From assembly GCF_003258315.1 (NCBI RefSeq), contig NZ_CP030032.1:3536501-3600500 (forward strand): a stretch of DNA of 64,000 nucleotides, given 5' to 3'. This document shows positions 18,489-28,771 of the stretch, piece by piece. Under the pieces are notes generated by a model, which saw only the letters and a program-made list of their open reading frames with translations, did no database searches and was not told where the DNA came from. The translations under genes and the position numbers were made by a program. This DNA comes from Bradymonas sediminis (GTDB taxonomy: Bacteria; Myxococcota_A; Bradymonadia; Bradymonadales; Bradymonadaceae). Each line of letters opens with the position of its first letter. Within the stretch, counting starts at the first letter, position 1.

Positions 18489-18752
18489 GTGGTCTTAATC
18501 GTTCGATGCTTCAAATGCGGCCAACAGGACGTCCGACTCATCGTGGGTGGACGCTCGATTATTCACGCCCGCTGCCACAGCTGCGGCGCGAATTTGCTCG
18601 AAGAGGTCATGGAATTTGAGGCCGAGATCGAGGCCGCCGCCACCGGCAGCCTCCACACCACCGCCGAGCACCAGGCCGTGTCGAGACCCTCCAAGGACAC
18701 GTCTTCTCTCGAGGAGAAGACCTCGACCGTGGTCACCGACGACGAACCCTGA
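18489..18752 (+). CDS. small zinc-ribbon protein
   Basis: An 87-residue protein with a GTG start 9 bp after the preceding lipoprotein gene. It holds one four-Cys zinc ribbon, CFKCG (residues 7-11) and CHSCG (29-33), separated by a short beta hairpin with the RLIVGGRSIIHAR stretch. The remainder is acidic, Ser/Thr/Glu-rich and probably disordered. The Cys spacing fits a structural zinc site. Role unknown; the tight linkage with the lipoprotein gene suggests co-expression only. Confidence 0.68.
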   Translation: MVLIVRCFKCGQQDVRLIVGGRSIIHARCHSCGANLLEEVMEFEAEIEAAATGSLHTTAEHQAVSRPSKDTSSLEEKTSTVVTDDEP

Positions 18753-18776: not shown

Positions 18777-21731
18777 TTAGGTATCGCTCGGCGCGACGCG
18801 CACTTGCGCGCGCCGCGCGTCCCAGAAGAGTCGCGGCGACGCGCCTCCCTCCCCGTTTAGCAACGCCTGGGTCACCGGCTGATAGAGGTGCTCGCTGATG
18901 AGCGCCTCGACCGCGCGCGCGTCGGCCACCTGCGAGGCCTGCTCGCGCAGGTATTCGGTCAGCGACGCGTCGATCTGTACCGCGAGGCGATACTCGTTTC
19001 GAAGCGCCTCGATAAACGCATCGGTGCGCTGCTCGAGCAACTCCAGAACGACATCTCCGCCCTGACCCAGCGAGTGAAACGCGACCGCCGCGTCGATCGG
19101 GTCGCGCAATTGGGACGCCAGCCCGCTCGGCAGCGCCCGCAGCGCCGCTTCATTGCCCTTGCCTGGCCCGCTGGCACTCGGGGCGCCAGCGGCAGCGCCG
19201 GCAAACCCGATGGCCTGCGCGCTGCGATCGGTGTCGGCGTGGACCGTCAGGATGAAGAGACTATTTCGCACATCCGCCCGGTGCCCGCGGGTGTCCACAA
19301 TCTCGCCGTCATCGATCAGGCGCAAAATTCGCGATTGAATCTGCGGGTGGGCGCGGTCGAAATCCTCAAAGAGCACCACGCTGCTGGGGCGGCGGCGCAG
19401 CGGGGTGACGAAGAGATCCTCATCCTCATAGCCCACGTAGCCGGGCGGCGAGCCGATCAGCCGGCTGATGCTATGCGCCTCCTGAAAATCATTCATATCC
19501 ACGCGCAGCAGGGCCTTCGGGTCGTCGAAGACCTCCTGGGCGAGGGCGCGGGCCAGGGTTGATTTACCCACGCCTGCCGGGCCGACAAACAGCAGCACCG
19601 CCATGGGGCGCATCTTGCCGGCGTTGCGCAAACGACTACTCACCAGGGCGTGGGCGATCTGGCGAATCGAGTCCTTCTGCCCCAGCACCCGCGCGCCCAG
19701 GCGCGCCTCGATGCCCACCCACCAGTTGATCTCACCGCGCAGCAGGCGGTCCAGCGGAATCCCGGTCTTCATATGGACCTGACGCGCCACGTCATCGCGC
19801 CCGACCCGTCGACTAAAATCAATCTTCTGCATCGGCGGCACCTCGACGTCGGGCGCCAGCGGGTTGGTCTCCATCAACTTCGAGGGGTCGCGCTCATCGG
19901 CGTCGCTGCGCTCATCGCCAATTTGTCCGTCATCGCTCGCCTGGGATGAGGACTGCGCCCCGACCTCGCCGACGGCCTGCGCCTGGCCGGGCACCTCCAG
20001 GTCGTTGGCCCGCGCGATGCACGCGTCCATCAGCAACTTCTTTGCCTTATCGGGCAGGCGCTGCTCGGGCAGATAACGCACCGACAACTCGATGGCCGCC
20101 TCGATGGCCGCGGCGTCCACCGCGACCTCATAATCCACCTCAAATTCGGGAGCCAGCGCGCTCAAGATATCGCGCACCATCGGCTCGGTGGGCTCCTTGA
20201 TCTCGATGCGCTCGAAGCGCCGCTTCAGCGCCGAGTCCTGCTCGAACCAGCGGTGATACTCGGCCTCGGTGGTCGCCCCGACCACGGCGATATCGCCGGA
20301 GGCCAGCGCGCGCTTAAAATGGTTGGGCACCGCGGCCGGCGAGTTGCTCGACGAGCGCGGCGCGAAGACGGCGTGGGCCTCGTCGATAAAGAGGATGACG
20401 TCTTTTCTGGACTCCTCAAGCAGGCTCTTAATGCGCAGCTCCAGGTCCCCGCGGTAGCTCGTGCCGCTCATCAGGCTGGCGCCGTTGAGCTCGATGACCC
20501 GGTACCCCTGCAGCTTTTTTGGCACCTGCCCCAGCGCGATCCGCTGGGCCAAACCCACAGCGAGCGCGGTCTTTCCGACGCCCGCTTCGCCGCACAGAAG
20601 TGGGTTTCGCTGCTCGCGGCGCAGCAAGATATTGATCACGCGCTGCAGCTCGATATCACGCCCGACGATCGGCGGCAGGCTCCCCAGAATGGCCTCCTCG
20701 GTGAGGTCGCGCCCGAGCATATCCAGGGTCGGCGTGAGTTGGCGTTTGGCGGCGAAGTCGATCGCGGCGTCGACCGCGAATTCCTGCTCCAGCATCTTCG
20801 GGTCGCCCAGGGCCTGGCGGATCTCAGACTCCAGCCCGAGCGCCTGGATCAACTCAAGGCTCGAGCCCCCATCCTCCAAAAACGCCTCGATCAGGTCGCG
20901 CTCGCCGACCTCACCCTCCTCGGCGCGCTCGGCGGCAAAGGAGAGCATCCGAATCATGCGCGGGGTCAGGGTCTTTCGGCCGACCAAAAACGCCGGGATG
21001 GGATCGGGCTTATTGCCGATGAGCCGCAATAACTCGTCGCGCAGCCGCCCCGGCTCCAACCCGCGCGCCTTCGCCGCGCGCCACATAATCGAGTGATTCA
21101 CCGAGCAGAGCATGGCGATCAGGTGCGGAGTCCCCAGAAACGGCGTCCCGTGGGCCACCGCGATTTGCATCGCCCCCTGCAGGATTCGCCAGGCCGAGTC
21201 ACCAAAAACCGGCTCGGCCAAGAGCCCCTTCTTATCAAAAAGTTGGTCGCCCTTGCCCTCACTGAGCCGACGAATCGCCCAACGTATCGAGGCCGACTCG
21301 GTGGCCTCCGCGCGCCAGGACACGCAGCGCGCCAACGCCGTCAGGCCAATCGTCGCCTCTCCGGCCCCCCGCGACATATCGTAGGCTTCTTCCAAAATGC
21401 GGATAAACCCGCGCGAGAAAAACTCCCGATGTAGCACCGGCGCCTCTTGCGTCGGCTCCTCCTCGATCTCGCGGGCCAACACGCGCAGGCGCGGCAGCAC
21501 ATCGGCCGGCTTGACGACCCCGTCGCTGCCCTCGGCGATCAAAATATCGAGGTCCGGCGAGCCATACTCAAGCAGGATAATCAGCAGGTCGAGCGGCAAA
21601 TAAATGCGCCGCTCGATCTGCTGAAGCCACTCGCCCATGCGCTCTAACAGAGCTCTGGCTTCGGCCGAAAAAGCGGCGGTTTTCAACGTGCCATCTGTGC
21701 CAAAGAGCACTTTATGGGCGAGAGGCTTCAT
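18777..21731 (-). CDS. Clp/Hsp100-type AAA+ ATPase with degenerate second ATPase domain
   Basis: A 984-residue class 1 Clp ATPase-like unfoldase. The N-terminal 340 residues carry four Clp_N-like half-repeats (for example FSAEARALLERM and SAWRILQGAMQIAVAHGTPF). D1 is complete: Walker A GEAGVGKT (381-388), pore SYRG (425-428), Walker B ILFIDEAH (446-453), sensor 1 GATT and arginine finger KRRF. An acidic linker (580-630) replaces a ClpB middle domain. D2 has Walker A GPAGVGKS (717-724) and pore GYVG (764-767). However, Walker B reads VVLFED instead of DE, the NRID arginine finger is DPID, and no GAR sensor 2 is seen. No ClpP-binding IGF loop was found. It is not linked to T6SS genes. ATP use by D2 is doubtful. 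Confidence 0.85.
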   Translation of the reverse strand: MKPLAHKVLFGTDGTLKTAAFSAEARALLERMGEWLQQIERRIYLPLDLLIILLEYGSPDLDILIAEGSDGVVKPADVLPRLRVLAREIEEEPTQEAPVLHREFFSRGFIRILEEAYDMSRGAGEATIGLTALARCVSWRAEATESASIRWAIRRLSEGKGDQLFDKKGLLAEPVFGDSAWRILQGAMQIAVAHGTPFLGTPHLIAMLCSVNHSIMWRAAKARGLEPGRLRDELLRLIGNKPDPIPAFLVGRKTLTPRMIRMLSFAAERAEEGEVGERDLIEAFLEDGGSSLELIQALGLESEIRQALGDPKMLEQEFAVDAAIDFAAKRQLTPTLDMLGRDLTEEAILGSLPPIVGRDIELQRVINILLRREQRNPLLCGEAGVGKTALAVGLAQRIALGQVPKKLQGYRVIELNGASLMSGTSYRGDLELRIKSLLEESRKDVILFIDEAHAVFAPRSSSNSPAAVPNHFKRALASGDIAVVGATTEAEYHRWFEQDSALKRRFERIEIKEPTEPMVRDILSALAPEFEVDYEVAVDAAAIEAAIELSVRYLPEQRLPDKAKKLLMDACIARANDLEVPGQAQAVGEVGAQSSSQASDDGQIGDERSDADERDPSKLMETNPLAPDVEVPPMQKIDFSRRVGRDDVARQVHMKTGIPLDRLLRGEINWWVGIEARLGARVLGQKDSIRQIAHALVSSRLRNAGKMRPMAVLLFVGPAGVGKSTLARALAQEVFDDPKALLRVDMNDFQEAHSISRLIGSPPGYVGYEDEDLFVTPLRRRPSSVVLFEDFDRAHPQIQSRILRLIDDGEIVDTRGHRADVRNSLFILTVHADTDRSAQAIGFAGAAAGAPSASGPGKGNEAALRALPSGLASQLRDPIDAAVAFHSLGQGGDVVLELLEQRTDAFIEALRNEYRLAVQIDASLTEYLREQASQVADARAVEALISEHLYQPVTQALLNGEGGASPRLFWDARRAQVRVAPSDT

Positions 21732-22003
21732 ATCTTCACGCGCTGACTAGAATAGAACTCGGGTCCTCGGGCGATCGCGAAACACGGCAAGATCCGATGC
21801 CGCAAATTCGGCCAACCGACCGAGCATATGCTAGCGCATCGCGCCCGGCTTTGGAAATATAGCAGCCCCACGAACAACAATGACGCCGCGCCACAGCAAC
21901 ATTAAACACCAATCTCGTGCTTAATGGATCTTTTCGGGCTATACTCGCCCGCGAGCACGCTATTTTGACTGTTCACGCTATTCTTAAACCGGGTCGAATC
22001 CAA
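21732..22003. other. divergent intergenic region
   Basis: A 272-bp spacer between the Clp-like gene (minus) and the FG-GAP lipoprotein gene (plus). No clear promoter box pair, hairpin or small ORF was recognised. Confidence 0.4.
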
Positions 22004-24412
22004 ATGCCGCACTCATTTCATCCAACCCCTCGCGCCCTGCTAAAAAAACCCATCTTCGCCGGACTTTTGCTCATCCTCCTGTCGGGGTGCGGCGATTGCG
22101 GAGACGGAACCCTTCAGGGCGGCCCAACCCAGACGCAAGACACCGGATGGGACGTCGGTGAGCGAAAGGATGTGTCAGGGCCTGAGGATGCCGGCAAGGA
22201 CGCGACCGGCGACGCCACACGGGACGCCGAGGAGAGCGACGCGGCGGTCTGCGACCCGGCCAACCAATGCGCCTCGGAGTGCTGCGAGAGCGCGGAGTTA
22301 TGCCTTCGCGACGCCTGCGTGCTGCCCGGCCAGACCTGCGAGCACAACCTGGAGTGCGCCAACGGCGAGATTTGCGAGCCCTCCATTGGGCGCTGCATCC
22401 CCGACCCCGGCGTGGTCTGCGAGTACCGCCCCGACACCGATATTTTCGAGCCCTCGGTGACCCTTGCCTGGAATGAGCCGTCTGCCGAGGAGCTCGCCGC
22501 ATTCCCGGGGTCGCCCTCCAACCAGGTCATGATGACCCCGGCGGTCATCGACCTGAACGAAGACGGCATCCCCGAGATCATCTTCTCGACCTTTAGCGGC
22601 GGCAGCTATAACGGCCGCGGCGTGCTGCGCGCGATCGACGGCAAGACCTACGCGCCGCTGTTCAACTTTACCGAGCCCGACAAGCTCGTGTCGGCAGCGG
22701 CCTCGCTGGCCGTCGGAGATATCGACGGTGACGGGCGCGTCGAGATCGTCGCCGCGGCCTGGAGCGCCGATGGCGGGCAGCGCGAGATCATCGCCTTCGA
22801 CGATTATACCACCGGCTGGGAGGTCATGTGGCGCACCACGAATAACCTCACCGTGGGCTCCGGCGGCGTCGCCCTGGCCGACCTGGACGCCGACGGCCAG
22901 GTCGAGGTTTACGGGTCGAATTGGGTGGTCGACGCGCGCACAGGCGCTCTGCTGTGCCGCCCCAGCGACATCGGCGCAAGCTCGGTCAACGCGATCGCGG
23001 CGGACCTCGATGGCGACGGGAAAATGGAGGTCATTACCCAGGGCGGCGCGTTCAAATTTGACCGCGCAAGCGGCGTCTGTTCGACCTATTGGCAATTTGA
23101 CGCGGCAAGCGGCGAAGTGGCGGTCGGCGACTTTGGGACATTCACCGACGGCCAGCGCAATTTCGACGCGCTCGACGGTGTGCCGGAGGTCGTCAGCGTG
23201 AGCGTGGCGGCCAGCGACCAGGTCCGCCTGCACAACGGGCAAACCGGCGGGACCATCTGGAAGGCGACGATGCCGACCACCGGCCACCCCGTCTATAGCG
23301 ACGCGCAATGCTCGAATAAAGCCGGCGCCGGCGCGCCGACCGTGGCCGACTTCAACGGGGACTCCTTCCCGCAGGTCGCCACCGCGGGCGCCTGCTATTA
23401 TACGGTCTTTGAGCGCGATGGGACGCTGCGCTGGAAGACCCCGGTGCGCGACTTCTCAAGCCGCGTCACCGGCTCGAGCGTCTTCGACTTCCAGGGCGAC
23501 GGCAAAGCCGAAGTCGTCTACGCCGACGAGTGTTTTGTGCGCGTCTACGACGGCACGGGCAACGGCGACGGCACCACCGAGATCCTCTTCGAGCGCCCGC
23601 ACACCTCGGGGACCCTGCGCGAATTGCCGGTCATCGCCGACGTCAACAACAACTACCACGCCAATATCGTGGCGATCTCGAACGACTACTCCACGGGCTT
23701 GAGCAACGCCTGCTCCAATGACTGGCCGGCCTTCGGTCCACCGAGCAACGCCGAGCACGGCATCCTGGTCTTCCAGGACGTCCAGGACCGCTGGGTCGCC
23801 ACCCGACCGGTGTGGAACCAGCACGCCTACCACGTCACCAACGTCTGTGATGGACGCCCCGGCTCGGTATGCCCCGGCCGCCCCAACACCGTGGGCGCCA
23901 TCCCGATCGGAGAGCTCGATAACTGGACTCAACCCGGCCTGAATAACTACCGCCAGAACGTCCAGGGAGAGGGGCTGTTTAACGCCCCCGACCTCGCCGT
24001 CACCAACCTGGCCACCGACTGCGACGCCAGCGAAGGCGTGACCTTCCACGTCACCATCTCCAACCTGGGCACCCGCGGCGTGCCCGAGGGCACCGAGGTC
24101 GCGCTCTACGTGACGGTCGAGGGAAGCCCCGAGCAATACCTCACCACGCTGACGACCACCGTGCGCCTGCTCCCCGGCGGCGCCGAAACGCTCGTCTATG
24201 TCTGGGAGAACGCCCCCGACCCCTCGGGCAATACCATCACCGTGCGCGCCATCGCCGACGCCGATGAAGACGGCAATGGCCAGCATAATGAGTGCCACGA
24301 GGATAATAACGAGCTGCAAAACCAGGCGACCTGCGCCTGCCAGGAAAACACCGACTGCAACCCCGGCGAGTTCTGCGCCAGCACAGGCGAATGTTTGCCG
24401 ATGGACGGCTAG
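22004..24412 (+). CDS. Cys-rich FG-GAP/VCBS repeat lipoprotein
   Basis: Exported lipoprotein of 802 residues. The signal ends with lipobox LLSGC near residue 25, then an Asp-rich linker. A Cys-rich module follows at about residues 80-130 (CDPANQCASECCESAELCLRDACVLPGQTCEHNLEC...). A seven-bladed-type FG-GAP propeller carries calcium-loop motifs DLNEDGIPEI, DIDGDGRVEI, DLDADGQVEV, DLDGDGKMEV, DFNGDSFPQV and DFQGDGKAEV. A CARDB-like adhesion domain (PDLAVTNLATDC...VTISNLGTRGVPEG) and a second Cys cluster (CQENTDCNPGEFC) end the protein. The Met at 22004 is set by the signal peptide. A role in surface binding is inferred from the domains only. Confidence 0.83.
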   Translation: MPHSFHPTPRALLKKPIFAGLLLILLSGCGDCGDGTLQGGPTQTQDTGWDVGERKDVSGPEDAGKDATGDATRDAEESDAAVCDPANQCASECCESAELCLRDACVLPGQTCEHNLECANGEICEPSIGRCIPDPGVVCEYRPDTDIFEPSVTLAWNEPSAEELAAFPGSPSNQVMMTPAVIDLNEDGIPEIIFSTFSGGSYNGRGVLRAIDGKTYAPLFNFTEPDKLVSAAASLAVGDIDGDGRVEIVAAAWSADGGQREIIAFDDYTTGWEVMWRTTNNLTVGSGGVALADLDADGQVEVYGSNWVVDARTGALLCRPSDIGASSVNAIAADLDGDGKMEVITQGGAFKFDRASGVCSTYWQFDAASGEVAVGDFGTFTDGQRNFDALDGVPEVVSVSVAASDQVRLHNGQTGGTIWKATMPTTGHPVYSDAQCSNKAGAGAPTVADFNGDSFPQVATAGACYYTVFERDGTLRWKTPVRDFSSRVTGSSVFDFQGDGKAEVVYADECFVRVYDGTGNGDGTTEILFERPHTSGTLRELPVIADVNNNYHANIVAISNDYSTGLSNACSNDWPAFGPPSNAEHGILVFQDVQDRWVATRPVWNQHAYHVTNVCDGRPGSVCPGRPNTVGAIPIGELDNWTQPGLNNYRQNVQGEGLFNAPDLAVTNLATDCDASEGVTFHVTISNLGTRGVPEGTEVALYVTVEGSPEQYLTTLTTTVRLLPGGAETLVYVWENAPDPSGNTITVRAIADADEDGNGQHNECHEDNNELQNQATCACQENTDCNPGEFCASTGECLPMDG

Positions 24413-24491: not shown

Positions 24492-25205
24492 TCACGCCCT
24501 CTTTTGTGCGATCACCACCAGGAACCCGCCAAAATACTTAAGCGCGGTGTCGCGCCCCATAAACTCGAGCTTTCGCAGCGCATGGCCGACCAGCGGGATC
24601 TTATGGACCGCGGCGGTCGGGGTGAAGATGCGAATGCCCGAGAAGTCGACCAGGCGCAGGCTGTCGGGCATGCGGCGGGTCAATTCGGAGGCGTCGTCCC
24701 AGCGGGTCAGGATGGCGCTCTCGTCGGTCTCGCGCGAAATTTTACGCGGCCCGGCGACCTTCTTGGCCAGATAACGCAGGCTCTTGGGGTTATAAAACTC
24801 CAGGATAAGATGGCCGCCCGGGCGGGTGACCCGCGCCATCTCGCTCATGGCCTTGTCGATATCGCGCACGTGGGCGAGCACCTTGAAGCTGTAGACGACG
24901 TCGAAGGAATTATCCTCAAAGGGCAGCGCGGTGACGTCGGCCTGGGCCACATCCAGCCCGCGCGCGGCGGCCTGCTGCAGCATCCCGTGGCTGATGTCGA
25001 TGCCCACCGCGCTCTGGGTGCGCCCGGCGATGCGGTTCATGATCAAGCCGGTGCCGCAGCCGACCTCGAGCACTTCTTTTCCGACGACATAATTGCCCAG
25101 CAGATCGACCTCTAGATCGTCGATCATCGCGTGGTAGCCGCGGTCACGTCCGCGCTCATACCAATCCGCAAATTCATCGTAATACGCTCGATTGTCTTTT
25201 TTCAT
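24492..25205 (-). CDS. class I SAM-dependent methyltransferase
   Basis: Rossmann-fold methyltransferase of 237 residues. Motif I LEVGCGTG is preceded by GKEV and followed by VGIDIS (acidic loop end). Motif II is ADVTALPFEDNSFDVVYS and motif III includes RVTRPGGHLILEFYNP. The layout matches the Ubi/Coq5-like or small-molecule methyltransferases; the acceptor is unknown. The gene diverges from the kinase gene across 176 bp. Nothing in the neighbourhood names a substrate. Confidence 0.85.
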   Translation of the reverse strand: MKKDNRAYYDEFADWYERGRDRGYHAMIDDLEVDLLGNYVVGKEVLEVGCGTGLIMNRIAGRTQSAVGIDISHGMLQQAAARGLDVAQADVTALPFEDNSFDVVYSFKVLAHVRDIDKAMSEMARVTRPGGHLILEFYNPKSLRYLAKKVAGPRKISRETDESAILTRWDDASELTRRMPDSLRLVDFSGIRIFTPTAAVHKIPLVGHALRKLEFMGRDTALKYFGGFLVVIAQKRA

Positions 25206-25381: not shown

Positions 25382-28300
25382 ATGGGTCGCACACAACGTC
25401 TGAACCAACCAGAAGAATTCGGCAAATACCAACTTGTCGCACGCCTGGCCCACGGGCGCATGGGCGATGTCTATCGGGCCAAGAGCCACGGGGTGGAGGG
25501 CTTTGAGAAAATCCTGGTCATCAAAGCGATTAACCCGGGGCTGGCGGGCGTGCCCGGCCTGGTCGACACGATTATCGACGAGGCCAAGCGCTCGGTGGCG
25601 CTGTCGCACGCCAATATCGCCCAGGTCTATGACCTCGGGCAAACCGATGATGGCCGCTTTTATCTGGCCACCGAATATATCAGCGGGTTTGACCTGGCCC
25701 GCGCGCTCACGGTCAGCCGGCGAAGCGCGCAGCCATTGCCCCAGGAGCTGGCGATTTTCATCGCCAGCGAGGTCGCCAAGGGCCTGGACTACGCGCATCG
25801 GCGAAAAGACTTCGACTTCAATAGCCTCAATATTTTGCACCGCGACCTGGTGCCCTCAAATATCGTGCTCTCCTTCGACGGGGAAGCCAAGATCACCGAC
25901 TTCGGGGTCTCGCGCGCCCTCGATCTGGTGGGGAGCATCGACGCCATTGATACCCGGCGTCGCCTGCTCTATGTCGCCCCCGAGGTCGCCCAGGGCCAGC
26001 CGCACACCCGCCAAAGCGACATCTTCAGCCTCGGCCTGGTCCTCTACGAGATGCTCGCCGGGCGCCACCCCTATGAGGATCCCAACGCGCCGAAATTCGA
26101 CGCCAATACGCCGCAGCGCACCGTCGAGAAATTTGTCCGGCGGGTGAAAGAAGCCAAGATTGAGCCGATCTCCCAGCACGCCACGGTGCCGCGAAAGCTC
26201 CAGCAGATCGTGGAGTCGATGCTCGTGCCAGACCCGGCCGGGCGCGCCACCAGCGCCGGGCAGGTCTACGAGGAATTGATCGGCTACCTCTTCGGCAATA
26301 ACCTGCGCGCCGACAGCCGCACGCTGGGGCAATTCGTCCAGCAATTGCGCCGCGAGGAGCAGCGCATCGCCCCCGAAGAGATCCCCCAGGAGGTTGGCTT
26401 CGACGAGATCAGCATGGGCGAGTGGACCGGGTCCTTCAGCGACGAAGACCTGATCGACGACTTCGCCGAGCACCTCATCGGCGACGGCCAACCGCGCCGC
26501 CCGCAGGTCCCGCAGCTCTCGTCGCCGACCCACGCCGACCTTCCGACGGCCAAGATCCAGGAGCTGCTCGCCGGGCGCTCAAAGCACACGCCCGCCGACC
26601 CGAGCGACTCCCCGGAGCTGCCCGGCGCGCTGCAGGATTATTTCCTCTCAGTGCGCGCCGGCAACGGCAAGGCCGTGCTGGCCACGGGGCAATTTGGCTC
26701 CGGGCGCGACCACCTCTCTGACCGGCTCATCAATGTCCTGGGCTGGCGAGGCAATACGCAGGCCATCGCCATTCAGGCGACCCGCGACGACCTCTATCGC
26801 CCGTTTGGCGTGCTCACCGACCTGATCTTGCGCTGCCTGCAAGACACCGTCACCGGCAGCGTCGACCTGCACCGCTCCGCCCTGCAGATGCTGCGCGCCC
26901 TGCCCGATGTTAGCCCGCAGGCCGCCGATACCCTCGGCGCCCTCTGGGATATCGAGGCGATGCCGCTGATGGACTACAACCAGCGCCGCGCCAACCTGAC
27001 CAGCCTCTTCAACGCGTTGCTGCGCGATTTCTGCCGCCGCGGCCCGATGGTCCTGGTCATCGACCGCGTCGAGCTGGTCGACCGCCTCACCCTGGACGTG
27101 CTGCGCGATCTCGTCGCGACCATCGACGCGCTGCCGGTGATGCTGGTGATGACCACCCATAGCGAGGAGTCGACCCGCGCCGCCTTCAACCTGGGCAACC
27201 CGGAGAACCTCGAGACGGTCAAGGTGCTCGGCAAAGAGGACACACGATTCGAGACCTTTGATACCCTCTCGGATCTGGCGGCTGAGATCTTGCTTATCCT
27301 GGTGGTCTGCGGGCAACCGATGTCGCAGAGCGACTTCGCCCAGATCCTGCAAATCCCCAGTGATACCCTGATGTTAGCGCTGCGCGAGCTGGTCGACTCA
27401 GGCGCGGTGCGCGTGCCCGAGATGGGCGTCTTTTACGCAAGCTCGGCCGACAGCAACGCCTGGGTTCACCAGAACTTCGCGCACCGCGAACTCATCGACG
27501 TGGCCCGGACCCTGGCGCGCTATTATAAGCATCGCGTGGCGCGCAATCAGATCGACCGGCTCACCCCGACGCTTATTATGTTGCACGCGCTGGCCGGCGA
27601 CCGGCGGCGCATGTTGCGCCTGGCCGGCGCCTATAGCCGCTGGCTGGAGCGCGCCGGCTGGACCGGCATCGCCATCGAATTCTACCGCCACGTGGCGGAC
27701 CTGCTGGCCGAGCACTCCCTGGGCTCGCCGCAGGCGCGCATCGACTATATGCTGCTGCGCGCCGAGCTCGCCCTGGACCTGTCACTGCTCGACGATGCCC
27801 GCGCGAGCCTGCAGCCCATCGCCGCCCTGAGCGAATCGCTTCGAAACGAGCACGGCACCGTGCGCGGCCAGCTGCTCTTCGGGCAGATGGCGATGCAACA
27901 GGACGACCTGGAGGAGGCCAAGACCTATTTCCACCGCGCCTCCAGCCTCGCGCGAAATCTCAACGACGCCGACCTTTTGGCGCGCAGTTTGCTGGCCCTG
28001 GCCGGATGGAATCAGCGCTACGGCGATCTGGCCAAGAGCCATCGAAACCTGGAGAGCGCGCAGAACCTCTTCAGCCACTCCGGCACCTTCCGCATGGACC
28101 TGCGCACCCGCTCGAAGCTGCTGCATCAATTGGTCGAGATGTGGACGACCCGCGGGGTCTTCGGCCAGGCCGCCCAGCGCAGCGCCGACCTCAGCCGCCT
28201 GGCCGAAGTCTGCGAGCTCACCAGCGTGCAATGCCGCGCGATGTGGGCCCAGGCACAGCTGCTCGACGCCAAGGGGCAGTACACCCAGGCGCTGGAGTTG

Positions 28301-28771
28301 CTCGAGCGCGCCGAAGCCAAGGCGCGCAGCGGCGACCTGACCGCGCTTCGCATCGCGTTGATCCGGGAGAAAGCCGCCACCGCCCTGCACGCCGGCGAAT
28401 ACGCCCTGGCCGCCGAGATCGCCGAGCCGCTTATCGCCCTGGCCGGGGAGCACCAAGATCTCTATAGCCAGCAGCGCGCCCGCGACCTCAACGCCACGGC
28501 CCACTGCCTGCTCGGCCACCATATCGACGCGTCGCTCAAACACCTCAGCGCAAGCCTGGAGCGCGCCCAGACGCGTCAAATCCCCCGTGATATCTATTTA
28601 AGTCACGTCCATCTGGCCCATGCCTTCAGCGCCCTGGGGCGCGAAGACCTGGCGCAAACCCACCGGGATGGCGTCGGGAAGCTGGCCCAAAAGATGCGCC
28701 TTCCCTCCGCCATCACCGACCAGATTGAGCGCATCACGACTAATCGTATCGCAGACCATCAACTGGGTTGA
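25382..28771 (+). CDS. Ser/Thr protein kinase with ATPase-like and TPR regions
   Basis: A 1129-residue signalling protein. The N-terminal Hanks kinase (residues 15-305) has Gly loop AHGRMGDV (first Gly replaced), Lys48 in VIK, Glu67, HRD (153-155), Asn160, DFG (173-175) and APE (199-201), so it should be active. A linker leads to an AAA/STAND-like region (420-600) with GQFGSGRDH in place of a Walker A (no Lys) and a hydrophobic LVID Walker B-like strand (558-561). The C-terminal half is alpha-helical TPR repeats (about 700-1080) with typical A-x-x-x-L/A-x-x-A spacing. Its 3' end overlaps the convergent LolC-like gene by 32 bp. This architecture is common in myxobacteria-like genomes; partners are unknown. 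Confidence 0.88.
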   Translation: MGRTQRLNQPEEFGKYQLVARLAHGRMGDVYRAKSHGVEGFEKILVIKAINPGLAGVPGLVDTIIDEAKRSVALSHANIAQVYDLGQTDDGRFYLATEYISGFDLARALTVSRRSAQPLPQELAIFIASEVAKGLDYAHRRKDFDFNSLNILHRDLVPSNIVLSFDGEAKITDFGVSRALDLVGSIDAIDTRRRLLYVAPEVAQGQPHTRQSDIFSLGLVLYEMLAGRHPYEDPNAPKFDANTPQRTVEKFVRRVKEAKIEPISQHATVPRKLQQIVESMLVPDPAGRATSAGQVYEELIGYLFGNNLRADSRTLGQFVQQLRREEQRIAPEEIPQEVGFDEISMGEWTGSFSDEDLIDDFAEHLIGDGQPRRPQVPQLSSPTHADLPTAKIQELLAGRSKHTPADPSDSPELPGALQDYFLSVRAGNGKAVLATGQFGSGRDHLSDRLINVLGWRGNTQAIAIQATRDDLYRPFGVLTDLILRCLQDTVTGSVDLHRSALQMLRALPDVSPQAADTLGALWDIEAMPLMDYNQRRANLTSLFNALLRDFCRRGPMVLVIDRVELVDRLTLDVLRDLVATIDALPVMLVMTTHSEESTRAAFNLGNPENLETVKVLGKEDTRFETFDTLSDLAAEILLILVVCGQPMSQSDFAQILQIPSDTLMLALRELVDSGAVRVPEMGVFYASSADSNAWVHQNFAHRELIDVARTLARYYKHRVARNQIDRLTPTLIMLHALAGDRRRMLRLAGAYSRWLERAGWTGIAIEFYRHVADLLAEHSLGSPQARIDYMLLRAELALDLSLLDDARASLQPIAALSESLRNEHGTVRGQLLFGQMAMQQDDLEEAKTYFHRASSLARNLNDADLLARSLLALAGWNQRYGDLAKSHRNLESAQNLFSHSGTFRMDLRTRSKLLHQLVEMWTTRGVFGQAAQRSADLSRLAEVCELTSVQCRAMWAQAQLLDAKGQYTQALELLERAEAKARSGDLTALRIALIREKAATALHAGEYALAAEIAEPLIALAGEHQDLYSQQRARDLNATAHCLLGHHIDASLKHLSASLERAQTRQIPRDIYLSHVHLAHAFSALGREDLAQTHRDGVGKLAQKMRLPSAITDQIERITTNRIADHQLG

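Follow-up and report, generated by a model that had tools for sequence, protein, structure and literature searches.

Domain organization of the Clp/Hsp100 protein

The window, i.e. the whole stretch of 64,000 nucleotides of Bradymonas sediminis that was analysed, carries an open reading frame for a two-ring Clp/Hsp100 protein, which had been predicted from the DNA sequence and proves to be real. Its domains are as follows, with the basis of each assignment in parentheses.

18777 to 21731, minus strand: Clp/Hsp100 open reading frame, two-ring, 984 aa (ATG start)
21216 to 21731, minus strand: first N-terminal Clp_N-like domain, residues 1-172 (AlphaFold2 model, VIA-align, hhalign)
20796 to 21215, minus strand: second N-terminal Clp_N domain, residues 173-312 (hhalign; helical pattern in the model)
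20004 to 20729, minus strand: D1 AAA+ domain, residues 335-576, catalytic set intact (motifs in the orthologue alignment)
19806 to 20003, minus strand: low-complexity D1-D2 linker, residues 577-642, no middle domain (sequence; pLDDT <50 at 579-637)
18849 to 19805, minus strand: D2 AAA+ domain, residues 643-961, catalytic set degenerate (motif alignment)

At an E-value of 0.001, Pfam detected AAA (D1), AAA_lid_9, and AAA_2 (D2), and the D2 small domain and Clp_N were below detection. Four Clp_N half-repeats had been proposed at the front of the protein; the predicted fold agrees with this and gives four helical half-repeats forming two Clp_N-like domains, with Pfam Clp_N failing at the same threshold. 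When the first N domain was modelled alone (residues 1-179), its AlphaFold2 pLDDT was 87.2, and the VIA-align matches listed were Hsp100/Clp N domains or Clp_N-like proteins (best Z 12.7, 2.7 Å over 122 residues). Its comparison with Clp N domains by hhalign gave an E-value of 5e-7 for a single target, and its Foldseek E-values were weak, 7e-4 at best. The second N domain aligned with the N domains of ClpA, ClpB, and ClpC by hhalign with a probability of 98 and an E-value of 1.5e-12, also for a single target. The predicted absence of a middle domain holds as well: no coiled coil is found between the rings, and the low-complexity linker stands in its place.

The full-length model has a mean pLDDT of 76.6 and a pTM of 0.46; therefore, the folds of the domains were used, but not their arrangement. 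Its best Foldseek match is a ClpC-ClpP model, and its best VIA-align row is the ClpAP chain 6w20_A (Z 30.4, 4.7 Å over 543 residues). Overall, the protein has the layout of Hsp100/Clp class I, with an N domain followed by D1-type and D2-type AAA+ domains. The complete ATPase motifs that this class has in both rings are found in D1, but not in D2.

Catalytic motifs of D1 and D2

Motifs were compared by aligning 22 orthologues with 21 other Hsp100s, which served as references. The near copies L022 and L023, and L025, which is cut at the N side, were left out of these 22 rows and of the trees; fragments and second copies (L027, L029, L032, L033, L035-L040, L043-L066, L091, L092) were not used as rows. 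The references Bac_ClpB, Bac_ClpC, Bac_ClpE, Nico_ClpL, Rhiz_ClpV, and Para_ClpGK are taken to be what their labels say, on the basis of length, motifs, and scores. The labels EcClpA, EcClpB, and clpK are record annotations, and the ClpA794 and ClpBa of the own genome pass the NCBIfam cut-offs. The D2 features of the window protein are listed below.

19560 to 19583, minus strand: D2 Walker A GPAGVGKS, residues 717-724 (alignment)
19431 to 19442, minus strand: D2 pore loop GYVG, residues 764-767 (invariant in the alignment)
19362 to 19379, minus strand: D2 Walker B VVLFED, residues 785-790, ED for DE (alignment)
19239 to 19241, minus strand: D2 sensor 1, His831 for Asn (alignment)
19203 to 19211, minus strand: ClpP-docking tripeptide IGF, residues 841-843, in a flexible loop (alignment; loop pLDDT)
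19092 to 19103, minus strand: D2 arginine-finger site, DPID for NRID, residues 877-880 (alignment)
18915 to 18923, minus strand: D2 sensor 2, DAR for GAR, residues 937-939 (alignment)

The catalytic set of D1 (K387 T388, D450 E451, R504 R505) and its pore residue Y426 are present in 22/22 orthologues, in line with the intact D1 originally predicted. In D2, most of the predicted pattern was likewise recovered. Walker A is kept in the window protein (K723/S724); across the family, its Lys is kept in all 22 rows and its Ser/Thr in only nine, being absent from the other 13. The GYVG pore loop is invariant in 22/22. Walker B reads E789-D790, where all 21 references have D-E; its catalytic position is Asp in 19/22 orthologues, and some orthologues have KD, DG, or QS at Walker B. 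The usual Asn of sensor 1 is replaced by H831 (Asn in 6/22 orthologues), and the NRID of the arginine-finger site by D877-P878-I879-D880, the finger Arg being present in 21/21 references and kept in five of the 22 orthologues. On sensor 2, the prediction was wrong: the motif is not missing, since GAR is changed to DAR with Arg939 kept, and this Arg is found in 13/22 orthologues. DE at Walker B occurs in a single orthologue, L042 (G012), whose Walker A is GKA and whose sensor 1 is Cys, so that its site is also incomplete. Altogether, the full D2 catalytic set is present in none of the 22 orthologues versus 21/21 references.

A shifted but intact Walker B, which would have overturned the original prediction, is rejected: residues 784-797 align without gaps in all 22 orthologues and all 21 references. 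Neither does the segment of residues 866-883 contain a consistent replacement Arg that the window protein keeps; R876 is Arg in 10/22, and residue 874 is Arg in 16/22 but Gln in the window. Because the lesion runs family-wide and no orthologue has the full D2 set, it is more than chance, and a sequencing error or a local mutation is rejected as its source.

The putative ClpP-docking tripeptide

It had also been claimed that the protein has no ClpP loop. This has to be withdrawn: IGF at residues 841-843 occupies the position of IGL in E. coli ClpA and VGF in Bacillus ClpC, in a loop of very variable length between D2 sensor 1 and the arginine-finger site. Such (L/I/V)-G-(F/L) loops (IGF/IGL/VGF) dock Clp ATPases into hydrophobic pockets of ClpP (PMC8745299, PMC5540906), and the D2 loop of the window protein thus has the tripeptide of ClpP-partner unfoldases. 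IGF is found in 24/25 distinct orthologues, the remaining one (L012) having MGF. By column of the 22 rows, I occurs in 21, G in 22, F in 22, and the next Gly in 18; the commonest residue in the other loop columns at 832-870 occurs in 12 or fewer rows. There are 12-16 residues before IGF and 20-37 after it, and the model has a pLDDT <50 at residues 838-857.

At this site of the alignment, IGL or VGF stands in the rows of ClpA, ClpC, and ClpE. No tripeptide was found there in the ClpB rows of E. coli, Bacillus, and the own genome (two rows), nor in the ClpV, ClpK/G, and ClpL rows; a passage of PMC5540906 describes ClpB/Hsp104 as lacking ClpP-docking loops. On the other hand, Myx847, a row that groups with ClpB, has LGF, and [FILV]GF is also found in own-genome paralogues of several types. 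Therefore, the IGF could in part be an inherited feature and not one retained for ClpP.

Evolution of D2

Among the columns conserved in at least 20 of the 21 references, 18/41 in D2 versus 3/15 in D1 are lost from at least half of the orthologues, the D1 total being lowered by four references with degenerate D1. The D2/D1 distance ratio has a median of 2.54 among the orthologues (231 pairs), compared with 1.36 among canonical Hsp100s (105 pairs) and 1.03 within ClpA (6 pairs). D2 is nevertheless under purifying selection, with a dN/dS of 0.057-0.225 in six orthologue pairs, the last of which has a synonymous distance near saturation. Pseudogene decay of the gene is therefore disfavoured. The invariant D2 columns number 53, of which 15 are family-specific; the latter include W670, W671, R801, R804, T814, and R815, and the position of R804 is Gln in 21/21 references. 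Since D2 combines this dN/dS with family-specific invariant residues, it has been reshaped and is not rotting.

Distribution and phylogeny

A scan of 84,980 species, with one genome per species, returned 22 loci: 21 relatives with 47-66% identity over the best segment (a single MAG contributed two of the loci as pieces) and one Bacillus Hsp100 with 32%. The protein is present, with the window genome included, in 18/21 genomes of the window's family and in 28/57 of the class. Outside that family but within the class, it occurs in 4/5 genomes of f2, 6/6 of f3, and 0/25 of the others. Among 283 genomes sampled across the phylum, those outside the class had only matches of 29-36% identity, like canonical Hsp100s. 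The orthologues were thus found only in part of the class Bradymonadia. One named carrier is Lujinxingia vulgaris (L013), a member of Bradymonadales, an order described as predatory in a passage of PMC7460792. No description of the family was found in the open-licence papers searched.

In the joint tree, the 22 orthologues lie on one side of a branch with an SH-aLRT of 100 and a length of about 2.1 changes per site, and the D1 and D2 trees recover the same 22-row clade (SH-aLRT 99 and 100). The clade joins no known group and stands apart from ClpA/B/C/E/L/V/K. These trees come from a quick search with branch support by SH-aLRT alone, and their deep order is unsafe because of the long branches of four paralogues with degenerate D1. 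The latter are Hsp100-like proteins of 1115, 826, 1124, and 919 aa in the own genome (L078, L079, and L081; contig C1 near 3.377, 2.751-2.756, and 0.541 Mb) with the mirror lesion, i.e. a degenerate D1 Walker B, an intact D2, and [FILV]GF at the ClpP-loop site. The genes for the 826 and 1124 aa proteins adjoin, and the 919 aa protein opens with HEAT repeats. In a further two-ring Hsp100 of 1142 aa (L080, C1 near 0.239 Mb), both rings are intact, the N-terminal part is long, and the ClpP-loop site reads IGF; this protein joins no group in the joint tree.

Gene neighbourhood and ClpP

The following neighbour recurs beside the Clp gene in relatives of the window's family.

24492 to 25205, minus strand: SAM methyltransferase gene (homologue directly upstream of the Clp gene in relatives)

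In all 12 loci of the window's family that were examined with upstream sequence, the methyltransferase is the next gene upstream and has the same orientation, with a gap of 54-128 bp. In the window, 2,761 bp separate the two genes, and an 831-aa FG-GAP/CARDB protein is encoded there on the opposite strand (21917-24412, plus strand). The methyltransferase was not found in seven loci of the other two families, and two further loci had too little upstream sequence. With a Ser/Thr kinase that has AAA_16 and TPR parts (25382-28771, plus strand), it forms a conserved divergent pair beside the Clp gene in relatives. The near neighbours in the window are the methyltransferase, the kinase, RlpA, and a 352-aa protein; the divergent kinase and a convergent RlpA gene are often common to the relatives' loci. 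A convergent 87-aa reading frame (18489-18752, plus strand) has two CxxC motifs and is zinc-ribbon-like by eye. A defence system is rejected, since the PADLOC matches were all partial ones, to AAA, methyltransferase, and kinase components. The methyltransferase synteny by itself gives no function.

The own genome has two full-length ClpP genes, one weak match, and a ClpS near ClpA. ClpP is present in 54/57 genomes of the class; therefore, its presence discriminates little for a ClpP-partner reading. It was not found in two of the 28 genomes with the Clp protein (G213 and G245), which are 80-81% complete in 400 and 690 contigs. Within the window's family, two ClpP genes per genome predominate; most of the other genomes have one. 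A link of the Clp protein to the second ClpP is rejected, since f2 and f3 carry the protein with mostly one ClpP.

Proposed function

The original prediction of a possible new Clp subclass in which D2 is structural stands in part. The clade and the family-wide motif loss argue for a separate subclass with a catalytically degenerate D2. The word "structural", however, is too weak because D2 keeps the pore loop, a near-invariant IGF, and new family-specific invariant residues. We lean slightly toward the view that this subclass is a hexameric ClpP-partner unfoldase, in which D1 would be the only or dominant ATP-hydrolysing motor and D2 a non-hydrolysing ring for gripping and docking. The domain order, the intact D1 motifs, the D2 motif loss, the conserved pore and IGF loops, the purifying selection, and the separate clade are observed in sequence and predicted structure; from these we infer that the protein assembles into hexamers, that D2 no longer hydrolyses ATP, that ClpP is bound, that D1 powers the threading, and that substrates are degraded.

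In the proposed mechanism, the two stacked Clp_N domains would bind substrates or adaptors, and D1, with its intact Walker A, Walker B, arginine fingers, and Tyr pore loop, would hydrolyse ATP and thread the chain. D2, without hydrolysis but with the P-loop Lys, GYVG, and IGF, may serve as a collar, passive or driven allosterically, that grips the chain, docks the complex onto ClpP, and passes the chain on; a ring can still dock after losing ATP hydrolysis. ClpA relies on D2 as its principal motor, with D1 as an auxiliary (PMC9663308), and NBD2 is credited with the translocation by ClpAP (PMC5540906). This division of labour between the rings would therefore be inverted, and the D1-powered protein may be a weak unfoldase that suits substrates with a loose fold or delivered by adaptors. 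A bolder form of this proposal is offered tentatively, as somewhat less probable than not: a natural ClpP system with the ClpAP roles reversed, where D1 alone unfolds and translocates, and a hydrolysis-dead D2 has been re-tuned as grip, gate, and ClpP adaptor with no ATP cycling. The residues that point to such re-tuning are the invariant GYVG, the near-invariant IGF, W670-W671, R801, R804, and R815.

The loss of D2 activity is itself open to argument, since slow hydrolysis is possible for the window D2, which still has GKS, two acidic residues at Walker B, and its sensor-2 Arg. An active D2 would use Glu789 in the Mg role and Asp790 as the catalytic residue, together with Lys723, Ser724, and Arg939; Asp at the catalytic position of most orthologues and the DE of L042 speak for it. 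Yet the window protein has neither arginine finger nor sensor 1, many relatives lack the Walker A Ser/Thr, others have KD, DG, or QS at Walker B, and L042 pairs its DE with GKA, and we regard an active D2 as unlikely. That D2 is simply decaying toward loss is very improbable: the variation of Walker A, Walker B, sensor 1, and finger between lineages would fit decay, but the low dN/dS, the 53 invariant columns (15 family-specific), and the presence of D2 in all 22 orthologues do not.

Other readings accept the D2 lesion and differ on ClpP. An IGF-docked protein might act as a regulatory cap that gates or blocks ClpP or competes with ClpA and ClpX, with D1 hydrolysis controlling assembly only. 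This would suit a docking tripeptide kept although the ring that drives ClpA is degenerate, and a genome with several other candidate ClpP partners, but it seems improbable, as Y426 of D1 and GYVG of D2 are unchanged in 22/22, and this invariance of the two pore loops suggests continued threading of substrate. A remodelling chaperone that works without ClpP, in the manner of ClpB or ClpV, and keeps IGF as a relic has precedent in Hsp100s without ClpP partners (PMC5540906) and in the LGF of the ClpB-like Myx847. Against it are the retention of IGF in 24/25 orthologues within a loop of freely varying flanks and the absence of a ClpB-type middle domain, and it is given a low probability.

The contributions of the rings in two-ring unfoldases are usually probed with engineered Walker mutants. 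If the D1-powered ClpP-partner reading is true, a natural loss of D2 hydrolysis with the pore and ClpP loops kept offers an evolved test of whether D1 alone runs a Clp protease, as well as of the purpose of a passive D2 ring. The mirror case, with degenerate D1 and intact D2, is available for comparison in the same genome.

Comparison with known Hsp100 systems

The protein resembles ClpA in having Clp_N, D1, and D2, no middle domain, and a docking tripeptide in the same loop, but it differs by the loss of the D2 catalytic set and by a second Clp_N domain. Its score with the ClpA equivalog TIGR02639 is 408.9 bits, below the cut-off of 993.15, and the orthologues fall outside the ClpA clade in their separate 22-row clade (SH-aLRT 100). 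ClpC provides the best PDB sequence match, the best Foldseek match, and a GF tripeptide at the same site; in contrast, the window protein has no ClpC-type middle domain, has a degenerate D2, and belongs to a separate clade. With ClpB/Hsp104, ClpV/TssH, and ClpK/ClpG it shares the two-ring fold, and TIGR03345 and TIGR03346 are its top NCBIfam scores. However, both are well below the cut-offs, at 440.7 versus 884.95 bits for ClpV/TssH (TIGR03345) and 437.9 versus 1232.1 bits for ClpB (TIGR03346), whose long coiled-coil middle domain is absent here. The protein differs from the ClpB/Hsp104, ClpV/TssH, and ClpK/ClpG groups in the missing middle domain, the IGF, and the lost D2 catalytic set. Plant SMXL/SMAX1 proteins, compared by description, are called atypical Clp-ATPases and also have a double Clp-N motif; they are described in the same passage of PMC9133912 as signalling proteins with an M domain that keep their Walker A and B motifs.
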